A DNA stretch of 27,164 bases from positions 1-27,164 of the IMG/VR virus record IMGVR_UViG_3300013126_000199. One strand, written 5' to 3'. The position numbers and the translations under genes are program-made. Source of the stretch: a virus. This document shows, piece by piece, positions 21,425 to 26,977 of the stretch. Every line of letters begins with the position of its first letter. Position 1 is the stretch's first letter. The notes under the pieces were generated by a model that saw nothing but the letters and a program-made list of their open reading frames with translations, made no database searches and had not been told where the DNA came from.

Positions 21425-21453
21425 ATTATAGCATACTCAAAAGTCTTTGTCAA
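21425..21453 (-). promoter_or_regulatory. Consensus sigma70-type promoter for the primase operon
   Basis: On the minus strand, TTGACA (21453-21448), a 17-base spacer, and TATAAT (21430-21425), with an extended TATGCTATAAT. Both hexamers are perfect. It lies at the 3' end of the 70-aa zinc-ribbon gene and fires toward primase-helicase and the genes that follow. Confidence 0.8.
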
Positions 21454-23176: not shown

Positions 23177-24172
23177 TTAGAACCTTTCGTATTCTGATTC
23201 GATTTCTAAAAACGGGAAATATTTGATCGCTGATTCTGGGTTTTTTATAGCTCTAATAAACTCTGATTCTGGGACATTATGGTGAGCTAGTAGATCGGCT
23301 AGATCCAGAAACGAATTAACCCCGTAAATCTCATTAAAACAATCGATCTCATAGAGTGATAGATTTCCCGCGTCTTTATATCCTTGATCCAGAAAATCAT
23401 CTAAATAAGATTCGATCATATAGTCTGAATCCGCCGTTCTAATAGATCCCTGATAGTGATAGTCTTTATATCCATAATCAGAATAATAATCATTAGCCCA
23501 ATATGAGCTAGCGGGCTTTAATGGTTTCAGAACGGGTTTTTCTAATGCTTGGGCTTGCGCTAGCTCTGGATCGTTTACAGGTGAGCTTGTAGCCGTTTCT
23601 GAGCTTGTCCAAGCATATTCATTAGATAACCATAGACCCGCCCAATAAACCCCTTCTGATTCGTTTATTGTGATCGTAAACCCGTCATCATTCATTAGAA
23701 CGAATTTATTCCCGTTCCCGATATGCTTAGAAACGATTTCACTAAAAGACGGGTGATACATAAAAGAAGGATTATCCTTTAGCATTGGGCGCAAGAAATC
23801 GACAATATAGTGCCAAGTATCAGACCTAGACGGGTCTTTAGCGTTTCCTGTACTGAGAATCCCATTATGCATGAGCCAGACATTCACGCCATGCTCTGAT
23901 CTATTAAGCACTTCGTAAGGATGACAATTCCCCAGATCGATCTCGCCATGGGTTCTCATTCTGAGATGATAAGCACAATTTTTTCCCTGAATATGGGAAC
24001 GATAGAAATCGATAAATTCTTGGGCTGTTTTCGGGAGTGCTTTTTCAATCACTAACATTCCCTTTTCTGAATACATTACACCTACGCCGTCTGAATTGTA
24101 AGAATAGAAATCAGCTAATCGTTCATCTGATAAAGCTGGGCTGTTTTGATTCTGGGTCACAAGTAAACACAT
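23177..24172 (-). CDS. Class II glutamine amidotransferase-like protein, 331 aa
   Basis: ATG 24172 has AAAAAGGA about 11 bases upstream. The protein starts Met-Cys2, and Cys2 should become the N-terminal nucleophile that releases ammonia from glutamine. Supporting motifs: NSDGVGVMY (26-34), HLRMRTHGEIDLGNCHPY (69-86; Arg73, His75, Asn82, His84) and WLMHNGIL (99-106), with the expected Ntn-hydrolase order. Residues 1-185 make up this domain. After that is a Pro/Ala linker (about 200-222), a Tyr/Asp-rich stretch (SYWANDYYSDYGYKDYHYQ, 223-241) and an acidic helical C-terminus. There is no synthetase domain in the chain, so the ammonia acceptor must be another protein, most likely the amidoligase next door. 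Confidence 0.85.
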   Translation of the reverse strand: MCLLVTQNQNSPALSDERLADFYSYNSDGVGVMYSEKGMLVIEKALPKTAQEFIDFYRSHIQGKNCAYHLRMRTHGEIDLGNCHPYEVLNRSEHGVNVWLMHNGILSTGNAKDPSRSDTWHYIVDFLRPMLKDNPSFMYHPSFSEIVSKHIGNGNKFVLMNDDGFTITINESEGVYWAGLWLSNEYAWTSSETATSSPVNDPELAQAQALEKPVLKPLKPASSYWANDYYSDYGYKDYHYQGSIRTADSDYMIESYLDDFLDQGYKDAGNLSLYEIDCFNEIYGVNSFLDLADLLAHHNVPESEFIRAIKNPESAIKYFPFLEIESEYERF

Positions 24173-24203
24173 AGTTTATATATCCTTTTTAGTAGAGTTA
24201 AAT

Positions 24204-25574
24204 TTAAGCTATCTTCTTAGTGGGAACGAATACATTCAGAAAACCCTTAGATTGTAGATACTCCCTAAGATAAATCGAATCTGATCTATTTTCGGGCTTA
24301 TTGATAAATTCTAAGAATTTCGATGTAGTTAAATCCTTAATACTTGCATCTTTAGTAAAGTGCCACGATAGAAACGAAAATTCTAAACAAGCTTGAATTG
24401 TTTCGTATTTTAATGTCCCTTTGAATAACCTAAATTCGATAGTGCTAGGATTCTGAAAATTAAGAGCCTCGTACCTATCATTATTCAGATTATTTAATGG
24501 GTTTCTGGTTTCACGAGCTTGTTTTAACCAGACGATATTATCTTTTTTATTCTTTATTTTCGCATAACCAGATTCAGACCGGCGAGCTATTGTCTTTATT
24601 AATTCGCTGTTTTTATCGTCATTAATAAATAGAATCAGCTTCGCCCCATGATATAAGCTCATTGTGCTTTTACATATATGGACATGAAGCCCGCAAGTGC
24701 TTGTATTATGGGATTTTAATCCGCTGAGAGGGTTTTTAAAGTATTCTAGCTGTTCTCGATGTACATCTAAACCAGTAAAACCCGTCACAATCTCGAATCC
24801 ATAGTTTAGAGACCCGTCACGCTCAGCTTGGCAGTACCTGTAATAAGATCCCGTCTTTTCGTTTCGATAGGTTCCCATAGCATTAAGCATATCTTCAGCT
24901 TTAGATTCTCTCTCATACCTTTCGGATACTTCGATCTCAAGCTCTAAACCGATTAGCACTTTGGGCTTGCGATTATCAAAAGCTGATGGAATATGACAAG
25001 GGTTAGATGAATGATATTCCCCAATAATAGAATCAGAATCATCTTCATCATCTTCTGAGTATTGTCTCTCATCATAATCGGCGTTCCTAATATAAGTATC
25101 TTCTGGGTCATAATAAGTATAATCAGCTTCGATACAGTCTAAGCATATAGGATTAGAATCGTAAGCCCAATGAATACGATCCCCGTCAGAATCCATAATC
25201 TCACCACAATCTTCGCAAGAATAAAACGGCGAGCCGAAAGGAAACGCCTTTTCTAATACATTTATAAAATCGCCTCTGTTCCGCATTATTCTAAAAGCTC
25301 GATCGTTAATAATACTTAAAGCTGTATCGAGGTCTTTATCTTTAAAGCACTGCCCTAACATTTTCCCTAATGCTTGGGCATCTTTTCTAAGCTGGATATA
25401 TCCTTCTCGTCTGAGATATGCTAAAGAATATCTATAATCTCGATAATTTTTTAAACGATAATTAATCCAATCCTTGATTATTCTTTTCTTGTTTTCAGAG
25501 TCGAAAATAACAGCTTCTTTAAGCATTTCAGCCAGAGATTTTCTGGCGTAATAATTGTCATAATGTAAGCTCAT
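24204..25574 (-). CDS. Amidoligase (COOH-NH2 ligase, Amidoligase_2 family) with N-terminal zinc element, 456 aa
   Basis: ATG 25574 has TAGGA about 11 bases upstream. The fold of the glutamine-synthetase/gamma-glutamylcysteine-ligase type is indicated by VLIGLELEIEVS (207-217), with acidic ATP-Mg ligands, ERDGSLNYGFEIVT (251-264), STCGLHVHICK (292-302), RYEALN (367-372) and TIEFRLFKGTL (378-388). Together these match the Amidoligase_2 (PF12224) pattern. The N-terminus (1-110) is helical and basic; Cys120-x2-Cys123 and Cys144-x2-Cys147 form a zinc-ribbon-like site, followed by an acidic linker (DERQYSEDDEDDSDS). Amidoligases join a carboxylate to an amine using ATP. The neighbouring amidotransferase could supply ammonia. 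The target is unknown. Confidence 0.85.
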   Translation of the reverse strand: MSLHYDNYYARKSLAEMLKEAVIFDSENKKRIIKDWINYRLKNYRDYRYSLAYLRREGYIQLRKDAQALGKMLGQCFKDKDLDTALSIINDRAFRIMRNRGDFINVLEKAFPFGSPFYSCEDCGEIMDSDGDRIHWAYDSNPICLDCIEADYTYYDPEDTYIRNADYDERQYSEDDEDDSDSIIGEYHSSNPCHIPSAFDNRKPKVLIGLELEIEVSERYERESKAEDMLNAMGTYRNEKTGSYYRYCQAERDGSLNYGFEIVTGFTGLDVHREQLEYFKNPLSGLKSHNTSTCGLHVHICKSTMSLYHGAKLILFINDDKNSELIKTIARRSESGYAKIKNKKDNIVWLKQARETRNPLNNLNNDRYEALNFQNPSTIEFRLFKGTLKYETIQACLEFSFLSWHFTKDASIKDLTTSKFLEFINKPENRSDSIYLREYLQSKGFLNVFVPTKKIA

Positions 25575-25585
25575 GGTTTTAAATC

Positions 25586-25669
25586 CTATTTAAGGGTTAA
25601 GGGGTTCATTATTAAAACGATTACAGCTACAGCTACAGCACAGACAAGTAATTCTAGCACTGGTTCCAT
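25586..25669 (-). CDS. Membrane micro-peptide, 27 aa, leading the amidoligase cassette
   Basis: ATG 25669 is preceded by AAGGA (spacing 9) and the frame ends with TAG 25586-25588, 11 bases before the amidoligase ATG. MEPVLELLVCAVAVAVIVLIMN plus PLTLK is a single, strongly hydrophobic helix. A leader peptide or small anchor is possible. It is short enough that the coding call remains tentative. Confidence 0.45.
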   Translation of the reverse strand: MEPVLELLVCAVAVAVIVLIMNPLTLK

Positions 25670-25784
25670 TTAGTTAGATCCTTATAAAGTTAAAAGATAG
25701 ACTGCCCAAGAATATATGCAAGAATCATGCCAGAATCAGTCCTAAGCCCTAAGTGCTTGATTCATAAGGATATTATTTTCTAAC

Positions 25785-25799
25785 TGAGAATTATTCTCA
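25785..25799. promoter_or_regulatory. 7-1-7 palindrome resembling a Fur-family box
   Basis: TGAGAAT-T-ATTCTCA is a perfect dyad. It differs from the core Fur box TGATAATnATTATCA at one position in each half. It lies about 116 bp upstream of the 27-aa gene that starts the amidoligase cassette. Confidence 0.35.
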
Positions 25800-25828
25800 T
25801 TAGCTGAGCTGTCCCTATTCCCTTAAAT

Positions 25829-25844
25829 GGTGCAATAATGCACC
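25829..25844. repeat. Palindrome GGTGCA-ATAA-TGCACC
   Basis: Perfect 6-bp arms with a 4-base centre. Further half-sites GGTGCA at 25871-25876 and GCACC at 25909-25913 make a pair of similar dyads about 40-80 bp apart in this control region. Confidence 0.55.
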
Positions 25845-26327
25845 GAAACAGTGAAAACCTGCCCTAATATGGTGCAAGCTCATCAGTCTAGCTGAGTGAT
25901 GCTTATAAGCACCATGATAGCCTCTTACTTACTTAGCCCAGATCTTAATAGTTTTCCGCTATTGGCACAGATATTGCCTTAGCAAGAATCATGCCATATT
26001 GCATTGCACAATCTGTTTATGCATATATGTGCATAGACGCATAAGTGCTTTATGCAAATATATGGATAAATGCATAGACGGGGGAGGGGCTATGCCGCTG
26101 CCTGTAAAATGCTGGACCCTACAACACACAAGAGAAGGCAAAATAGGAATTAAATATCCTAAAAACGTCCTAAATAGTACGAAATAGGGCTGAATTCCCA
26201 CTATAGAAATTGCCTTATAAATCAATGACTTAGGCTTGTGCAGACCCAGCAGGTCGCCTAAAGAGAAAAGGGACAGGTTGACCAGTGCTCTCTAAGCCCT
26301 AAAGAGGGACAGATAAGAAGAAATAAC

Positions 26328-26356
26328 TTGACAAATCTCTAAAAATATGCTATAAT
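26328..26356 (+). promoter_or_regulatory. Consensus sigma70-type promoter for the terminase operon
   Basis: TTGACA at 26328-26333, a 17-base spacer, and TATAAT at 26351-26356, with extended TATGCTATAAT. Both hexamers are perfect. A leader of about 195 bases separates it from the small terminase gene. Confidence 0.82.
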
Positions 26357-26450
26357 ATACTTGTAGTAAAAAAACAACAAGAACTAATTATATAGATCTG
26401 AGCAGTTGATCGCCTAAGAAGTGAATTGAAGTTAACAGGTATCTAATAAT

Positions 26451-26472
26451 AATTATTATTAATATTCACTTT
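26451..26472 (+). promoter_or_regulatory. 22-nt leader element shared with the primase operon leader
   Basis: The stretch begins AATTATTATTAATATT and ends ACTTT, differing from the minus-strand copy at 21389-21368 by one base (C here, T there). It lies 94 bases after the -10 and 85 bases before the terminase start. Confidence 0.5.
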
Positions 26473-26557
26473 TAGTCTCTGTTTAGTTAATTATTAATAG
26501 TTATATCCTACTACATACAAAAACAAGCTATGTAGAAACTATATAGAGGAGAATTTA

Positions 26558-26977
26558 GTGTCAAACACTGAACCTCTGTCTGATGTGTCTGTGTCCCCTT
26601 CAAAGAGGAAACGTGGCAGACCCCGTAAGGCAGACATAGAAGCCAAGAAGAATAGAAATGTAGTAGGAAGGCCTCCCGGAGAGGCCGCTAGGATAAAAGA
26701 ATTCTATGCTCGTTTACTGTCCACCAGTGGTGAGAAGGTAATCGAGACTGTCCTCCGTAAAGCGATGGACGATGGTGATAAGGATCAGGTGGCCTGTCTT
26801 AAGATGTGTATCGATAGGCTATTACCCTTAAGTCACTTTGAGAAGCAGGGTCAGGGCAGGGCTGGCGCTATTCAGGTACAGATTGTTACTACTGGTACAC
26901 CCCAGATAGCTGCTAGAGAAACTGAAGAAGTAGGCTATGAAGTAATTGATGTGGAGGACTCGGATGGCAAACCTTAG
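26558..26977 (+). CDS. terS: Small terminase subunit, 139 aa
   Basis: Start is GTG 26558, with AGAGGAG six bases upstream. The N-terminus contains KRKRGRPRKADIEAKKNRNVVGRPPGEAARIKEF; KRGRPRK and VGRPPG are AT-hook-like DNA-contact elements. Residues 40-90 form a helical segment (YARLLSTSGEKVIETVLRKAMDDGDKDQVACLKMCIDRLLPLS), and the C-terminus is acidic. This layout, and the large subunit right behind, matches podovirus small terminase proteins that bind the packaging site on the genome. The large subunit gene starts within its last codons (14 bp overlap). Confidence 0.8.
   Translation: MSNTEPLSDVSVSPSKRKRGRPRKADIEAKKNRNVVGRPPGEAARIKEFYARLLSTSGEKVIETVLRKAMDDGDKDQVACLKMCIDRLLPLSHFEKQGQGRAGAIQVQIVTTGTPQIAARETEEVGYEVIDVEDSDGKP

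Follow-up and report, generated by a model that had tools for sequence, protein, structure and literature searches.

Bacterial promoters of the glnA type are enhancer-dependent and use NtrC together with sigma-54. The E. coli sigma-54 motif obtained by gSELEX is TGGCACnnTTnTTGC, and the published form of the NtrC box is TGCACCAnnnTGGTGCA (both from PMC8743547); the sigma-54 site of pspG is given as TTGGCATGATTCTTGTA in PMC4591121. Host regulators also reach into phage genomes. Genes of the cyanophage S-PM2d are under host PhoBR control through Pho boxes in the promoters of single induced genes, and the same source calls predicted Pho boxes in phage genomes unreliable unless binding is tested (PMC10976474). 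In T5, the injection stop signal is described in a 2026 report as a set of repeats, palindromes and DnaA boxes that is thought to form structures and/or bind host components, and how the second step of DNA transfer works in T5-like phages is there called poorly understood (PMC13250531). Our literature search, which covered titles and abstract openings, found no report of sigma-54, NtrC or operator arrays in phages.

The window analyzed here is an entire IMG/VR virus record of 27,164 bases. Its minus strand carries replication genes (DNA polymerase, primase/helicase, exonuclease and ribonucleotide reductase), and at its right end the plus strand carries a small-terminase-like gene followed by the start of a large terminase gene. 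The 983-bp stretch at 25575-26557, between a leftward amidoligase gene and the rightward small-terminase-like gene, appears to hold a compact array at the boundary between the leftward genes and the terminase/structural genes: three sigma-54 (RpoN) elements, three boxes of NtrC type, one Fur-like box and IHF-like sites. Judging from their likeness to known motifs, these elements are very probably sites for host regulators. The sigma-54 motif was compared with the E. coli consensus, and the Fur, IHF, LexA, DnaA and SlmA motifs were assigned by likeness to general consensuses. The features are as follows.

23177-24172, minus strand: class-II glutamine amidotransferase (GATase_4; score 24.0 bits, cut-off 23), the next gene after the amidoligase
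24204-25574, minus strand: Amidoligase_2 family enzyme, the first gene left of the array
25718-25732, minus strand: unpaired sigma-54-like -24/-12 element TGGCATGATTCTTGC, aimed at the amidoligase gene and 144 bp before it
25750-25762, minus strand: IHF-like site AATCAAGCACTTA, between the unpaired sigma-54-like element and the Fur-like box
25785-25799, no strand assigned: Fur-box-like 7-1-7 palindrome TGAGAATTATTCTCA
25818-25834, plus strand: NtrC-box-like TTCCCTTAAATGGTGCA, 10 of 12 consensus positions, the first of three boxes in 21-bp phase
25839-25855, plus strand: NtrC-box-like TGCACCGAAACAGTGAA, 11 of 12 positions
25860-25876, plus strand: NtrC-box-like TGCCCTAATATGGTGCA, 11 of 12 positions
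25963-25977, plus strand: sigma-54-like -24/-12 element TGGCACAGATATTGC, left half of a face-to-face pair
25982-25996, minus strand: sigma-54-like -24/-12 element TGGCATGATTCTTGC, right half of the pair
26080-26089, plus strand: strand-specific G-run GGGGGAGGGG, directly right of the array
26113-26239, plus strand: conserved non-coding block
26220-26232: IHF-like site AATCAATGACTTA, inside the conserved block
26328-26356, plus strand: consensus sigma-70 promoter TTGACA-17-TATAAT with extended TG, before the rightward genes
26558-26977, plus strand: small-terminase-like protein, named from its position before the large terminase and without a PHROG or Pfam match

The repeats between the divergent genes

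The initial annotation of this region pointed to a repeat-rich zone that might serve as a replication origin or regulatory hub, and most of the repeats it named are there. The exact 15-bp direct repeat GCAAGAATCATGCCA lies at 25718-25732 and 25982-25996 (no exact 15-mer repeat of any kind arose in 2000 shuffles of the 363-bp stretch), the GGTGCA dyad GGTGCAATAATGCACC at 25829-25844, its extra half-sites at 25871-25876 (GGTGCA) and 25909-25913 (GCACC), and GCTTATAAGC at 25901-25910. Read on the other strand, the 15-bp repeat is TGGCATGATTCTTGC, which has the sigma-54 -24/-12 form. The dyad and the extra GGTGCA, which lies within the third box, belong to a series of three boxes that follow the NtrC form TGCACYNNNNNRGTGCA, set in 21-bp steps with 2, 1 and 1 mismatches. 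The opposite-strand third copy of the sigma-54-like motif at 25963-25977 and the Fur-like palindrome had been overlooked. The repeated TGCATAGACG does occur, at 26030-26039 and 26071-26080, and a 10-mer repeat of this kind arises by shuffling in 24 of 500 cases. The alternation of ATGCAT-type units claimed alongside it is weak, however: only two copies of ATGCAT fall in 26000-26090, six more lie elsewhere in the window, and among the eight closest sequences (window included) the second unit (about 26050-26076) is conserved while the first is missing in several.

The region does lie between divergent units, with gene starts at 25574 (leftward) and 26558 (rightward). AT-rich DNA does follow the repeats, but not immediately, as G+C is 0.39 in the 363-bp stretch, 0.45 in 26081-26320 and 0.24 only from 26321 to 26557. 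An origin with iterons would draw on the repeats, on this AT-rich segment and on the cumulative GC skew, which has its minimum and turns near 26 kb. The minimum coincides with the switch of gene strand and is thus indistinguishable from an effect of transcription. Furthermore, the iteron-like ATGCAT units are not conserved as tandem repeats, the DnaA box TTATCCACA is absent from the window and, as had been remarked at the outset, no initiator gene is visible among the window proteins scanned. We regard an iteron-type origin as very improbable. The suggestion of a regulatory hub fares better, at least in part, in that the conserved repeats match sites for host regulators (sigma-54, NtrC, Fur and IHF).

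A face-to-face sigma-54-like pair upstream of terminase genes

All three sigma-54-like copies in the window fit the -24/-12 consensus TGGCAC-N5-TTGC, with GG and GC 10 bp apart. Two of them form the face-to-face pair, which spans 34 bp overall with its halves 4 bp apart. We examined the family of this locus through the small terminase: 80 loci were fetched, 57 had at least 600 bp upstream, and with near-duplicates taken out 46 remained, giving 47 upstream regions with the window. A face-to-face pair with a gap of 3-4 bp and a score of 20-22 out of 22 is present in 26 of these 47 non-redundant regions, and in all 26 it begins 446-595 bp upstream of the small terminase. The other 21 score no higher than 16, and 470 shuffled regions reach at most 18. 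In the 80 loci, which were fetched via the small terminase and not via the pair, all 24 convergent neighbors within 60 bp have a gap of 3-4 bp (near-duplicates included). The unlike halves of the pair exchange sides between clades. Seven regions without a pair (L012, L013, L015, L020, L027, L052 and L059) have different dyads, TGTNGYRT..AYRCNACA, in roughly that position, as though one set of operators could stand in for another.

A motif scan of 16 whole records found the sigma-54 motif confined to the place of the array in eight of them (the window and its relatives G003, G004, G005, G006, G008, G009 and G014, some of them partial), and a reversed-pattern control had no match there. Each of the seven relatives has one plus-strand and one minus-strand copy, and the window has three; the motif is absent from G001 and G010, and G011 has one exact copy opposite a degenerate partner. 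The unpaired element at 25718-25732 is present in the eight closest sequences (window included) with its GG...GC kept, and its position 4 is A instead of C in five of the eight and T in one. The contigs of the relatives end at varied places, and neither a blastn search with the intergenic region nor a search with the small terminase found a match among named phages.

Scanning IMG/VR for the pair returned at least 119 stretches, compared with 15 for a control with a gap of 9-10 bp, which may itself lie above chance. A stricter pair pattern, satisfied by 100 of 116 listed viral loci, was applied to 257 Gb of genomes from bacteria and archaea and picked out 6 stretches. An rpoN gene was found in five of the six genome bins that hold the pair, a Butyrivibrio bin being the one without a detected rpoN, and in 4 of 14 control genomes. 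Across 229 distinct half-sites from the listed loci, the free positions are biased, with A or G at position 7 in 97%, T at positions 9 and 10 in 58% and 62%, and A or T after TTGC in 77%. These preferences follow the sigma-54 motif, which supports its identity.

We assembled 130 listed viral loci: the pair scan supplied 116, and the control scan with the 9-10-bp gap added a further 14. In 71 of the 130, nine of which stem from the control scan, a large terminase of one BLAST cluster lies within 6 kb; the cluster is single-linkage, with the annotation of hits checked for two members only. Of these 71 large terminases, which differ widely from one another, 70 have the site on their upstream side. 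Gene calls for viral loci, here and in the counts of leftward frames and orientation below, are longest open frames, not curated. The window-type small terminase is common to 32 of the 130 loci and the rest are less related, so the loci are not all unrelated. On the sequence evidence, the match of the motifs to their consensuses, their conservation, the restriction of the sigma-54 motif to one place in half of the scanned records and the recurrence of such clusters upstream of very different terminases are established.

Two candidate explanations for the pair were set aside. The terminase is unlikely to be the reader of the array, given that one sigma-54-like consensus accompanies large terminases of very different kinds. 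An RNA hairpin was rejected as well, as the inner five bases of the halves show 167 identities against a shuffled mean of 212, and all 500 of 500 shuffles were at least as alike. This excess of differences, seen in the pairs of L090-L205, would fit avoidance of perfect inverted repeats or their loss during assembly. The Pseudomonas phage Kat has a face-to-face pair (L226, 3003-3036) between two annotated genes, followed after about 11 bp by a sigma-70-like promoter.

Operator-type sites and the terminase side

The listed viral loci were cut by similarity to 98 for the NtrC count, to 107 for the palindrome and operator counts and to 56 oriented loci for the IHF and G-run counts. Within the family, the 47 upstream regions contain 9 perfect and 23 one-mismatch NtrC boxes, compared with 0 and 0.25 in shuffles, these regions being related sequences and not independent. 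Perfect 12 of 12 boxes occur in L012, L013, L019, L020, L031, L032, L036, L041 and L067, and of the 16 whole records scanned one has a perfect box (that of L013). Among the 98 listed loci, 31 NtrC boxes lie within 300 bp of the pair (15 loci), compared with 10 in the remaining 819 kb. Controls with the gap changed by one gave 1 to 7 and 2 to 6, and a shifted control gave 2 near and 1 far, which are small numbers. Leaving out the loci with the window-type small terminase, 23 boxes are near the pair (9 loci) and 5 are in the remaining 655 kb (77 listed loci).

When gapped 5-mer palindromes were counted without bias around the pairs of the 107 listed loci, TGCAC-N7-GTGCA came first, followed by GCACC-N5-GGTGC and GTGAG-N2-CTCAC, the last of which we take to be SlmA-like; NtrC-type and SlmA-like forms therefore score highest. 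Fourth place went to the A/T-run AAAAA-N6-TTTTT, and Fur-type palindromes took places six, nine and ten; some further palindromes that have no known reader also score. The perfect Fur form is found in 7 of the 47 family regions, against 0.05 in shuffles, a count that again comes from related and not independent sequences, and Fur boxes lie near the pair in 5 of the 98 listed loci. Several NtrC- and Fur-form sites surround the pair in the arrays of L141 and L097.

The sequence WATCAANNNNTTR, presumably the IHF consensus, has only three matches in the 27-kb window, two of which are the sites at 25750-25762 and 26220-26232. In the 56 oriented listed loci, 15 IHF-like sites fall on the terminase side within 20-400 bp and 3 at equal distances on the other side, with controls giving 0-3 on the terminase side. 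Other operators were less informative. DnaA boxes are enriched 10.7-fold near the pairs of the listed loci, not well above the 3.8- and 6.4-fold of scrambled controls. A strict LexA box is absent from the window, and among the 107 listed loci strict LexA boxes are enriched near pairs but confined to one locus. In the same 107 loci, five one-mismatch SlmA sites are near pairs and four far from them, and CRP, FNR, ArgR, TyrR and PurR sites show no enrichment near pairs.

Between the array and the small terminase lie two further conserved features. The G-run is present in 39 of the 47 family upstream regions, and in the 56 oriented listed loci it occurs within 400 bp on the terminase side in 10 and on the other side in none, with its complement found once and a background of 1 in 223 kb. 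It is possibly a packaging or replication-stop signal. The block at 26113-26239 has a BLAST match in 42 of the 47 upstream regions (window included), among them most of those without the sigma-54 pair, and we consider it a candidate packaging signal (cos/pac) or structured element. This bears on the idea that the array itself belongs to the signal for DNA packaging and that IHF or other host proteins aid the terminase. The position upstream of the terminase in nearly all large-terminase loci, the strand-specific G-run and the IHF-bearing block would suit such a role. However, the adjoining conserved segment 26080-26239, which is also kept in most regions that lack the pair, is the better candidate, and we think it improbable that the array serves in packaging. 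Further right, the sigma-70 promoter and its leader (window 26321-26379) have a similar second copy about 4 kb downstream in many relatives, and the promoter pattern has a one-mismatch match at 21425-21453 on the minus strand.

Promoter, landing site and known systems

A plainer use for these elements would be an enhancer-dependent, nitrogen-controlled two-way promoter, in which NtrC bound at 25818-25876 activates sigma-54 polymerase. This would drive transcription rightward into the late leader from the element at 25963 or, for the amidoligase and glutamine-amidotransferase genes, leftward from the elements at 25996 and 25732. Several features argue for this. With the rightward start predicted near 25989, the NtrC-like boxes have their centers at roughly -121, -142 and -163, exactly 21 bp from one to the next and inside the 80-200 bp upstream where a bEBP enhancer is expected, so that their spacing to the sigma-54-like element is, as far as coordinates go, that of an ordinary enhancer and promoter. 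The unpaired element that precedes the amidoligase gene is kept in the closest relatives, the genes downstream encode an amidoligase and a glutamine amidotransferase, and the enrichment of NtrC boxes near pairs extends beyond the window's own family. The Amidoligase_2 and class-II glutamine amidotransferase genes are adjacent (23177-25574), beside the NtrC- and sigma-54-like sites. A protein search found the amidoligase in 8 loci.

Other evidence speaks against promoters. From the known footprint, two holoenzymes on head-to-head elements 3-4 bp apart should be mutually exclusive, and the unlike halves trade orientation between clades. Apart from the single copy at 25718-25732, which aims at the amidoligase gene, the elements are not consistently oriented toward a downstream gene: unpaired sigma-54-like sites point toward genes in 22 cases and away in 23, with 62 uninformative at contig edges, 51 inside open frames (these may overlap) and 44 with both or neither neighbor facing. 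By contrast, sigma-70 promoters in the same loci (10 of 12 match) point toward genes in 68 cases and away in 25 (Fisher P 0.007), with 35 uninformative at contig edges, 63 in open frames and 72 with both or neither neighbor. Because the unpaired elements are not gene-directed and sigma-70 promoters are, an array for landing or roadblock fits better than promoters. Additionally, L013 has its perfect NtrC box without an exact sigma-54 element in 38 kb, and other pair-bearing family members have different leftward open frames; among the first leftward open frames of 20 listed family loci, only that of L011 resembles the amidoligase (judged by eye on longest open frames). A phage-coded activator was also sought, and no PF00158 domain was found in 20 records, several of them partial. 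On balance we consider the promoter reading unlikely, if still the strongest of the alternatives. In L111 (2055-4550), tandem sigma-54-like elements stand 26-38 bp apart, and two such tandem pairs lie before leftward genes with sigma-70-like promoters and aim away from those genes.

Searches with array DNA at a loose E-value limit reached named phages, and such sites cluster in T5-like ones. In the T5-like coliphage DT57C, either terminal repeat has four Fur-form sites, three of them in a long non-coding stretch and one in a gene, and these eight are all that the phage has; its LexA-form site and DnaA boxes are likewise confined to the terminal repeats; the cluster of Fur, LexA and DnaA forms (L229, 6829-8725) is near the genome end. 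DT57C has no exact sigma-54 element. The Vibrio phage VCPH has a cluster of sigma-54, LexA and DnaA forms near its genome end (L228, 2457-3728): the non-coding stretch beside its A2-A3 and A1 genes holds five sigma-54 elements (of six in all), two LexA-form sites (of three) and three DnaA boxes (of seven). The sixth sigma-54 element, the third LexA-form site and two DnaA boxes are at the end of the record, the other two DnaA boxes are elsewhere, and no Fur-form site is found in VCPH. In the Vibrio phage D419 (L227), a cluster near the genome end, at 103.2-107.2 kb of the 114-kb record, takes in every sigma-54 element (five), LexA-form site (three) and DnaA box (five) of the phage. This cluster is near a DNA-transfer-protein gene, and several of its sites are inside small annotated hypothetical genes rather than in non-coding DNA.

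Such numbers of sites raise the question of a decoy, in which replicated phage genomes would soak up sigma-54 holoenzyme, NtrC, Fur and the like at the expense of host promoters. The seven NtrC boxes of L141, the 8-12 exact sigma-54 half-sites of the richest loci and the Fur-form sites repeated at both ends of DT57C are what a sponge might look like. The window, however, offers only 1-3 sites of each kind, which would be few early in infection, and a sponge leaves unexplained both the fixed place before the terminase and the preferred gap of 3-4 bp. We consider it quite improbable, though slightly less so than a role in packaging.

The reading that we prefer, while giving it a little less than an even chance, is that the array serves above all as a landing site where host proteins assemble a roadblock or similar complex. 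A silent closed complex of sigma-54-RNA polymerase, together with NtrC, Fur and IHF, would occupy the array and form a roadblock or landing complex near the packaging end of the phage DNA. Its likeliest use would be to pause or stage the entry of DNA, in the way suggested for the stop signal of T5-like phages, and release might depend on the state of the host via NtrC and Fur. Several observations run against the landing array as well. The window's NtrC boxes each have 1-2 mismatches and it has neither a DnaA nor a strict LexA box; 21 of the 47 family regions lack the pair; few listed loci have NtrC boxes near the pair, and fewer have Fur boxes. One of the six pair-bearing bins has no detected rpoN, and the T5-like phages are uneven, DT57C being without the sigma-54 element, VCPH without the Fur form and D419 with its sites partly in genes. 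By analogy, our own reading is that the palindromes of the T5 stop signal may be operators for host proteins and that the window phage has a similar array beside its likely packaging signal. More broadly, and only tentatively, many unrelated lytic phages could carry at the packaging or entry end an operator array for sigma-54 polymerase, NtrC, Fur, LexA, DnaA, SlmA and IHF, the T5 palindromes included, on which landed host proteins halt or ratchet entry while nitrogen, iron or DNA-damage state sets release.

If the T5 stop signal is a row of known host operators, this would be testable in E. coli by single host gene deletions and operator removals. The face-to-face pair could also serve as a simple 33-34-bp marker of such phages in environmental contigs. 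Like the T5 injection stop signal, the window has a stretch rich in palindromes and sites for host proteins; it differs in having a mix of sigma-54, NtrC, Fur and IHF sites without a DnaA box, in belonging to a phage that is not T5-like, and in lying before the terminase, not in a known terminal repeat. With bacterial NtrC/sigma-54 promoters it shares TGGCAY-N5-TTGC elements and NtrC-type boxes 120-160 bp upstream, but the phage elements face each other 3-4 bp apart and have no consistent gene orientation. Even if the array is a promoter, its ties to NtrC/sigma-54 and Fur would make this phage another example of sensing the nutrient state of the host, beside the Pho boxes of cyanophages. Both place sites for a host two-component regulator within phage DNA; the cyanophage Pho boxes belong to single-gene promoters, whereas in the window the sites of several regulators are packed into one array.
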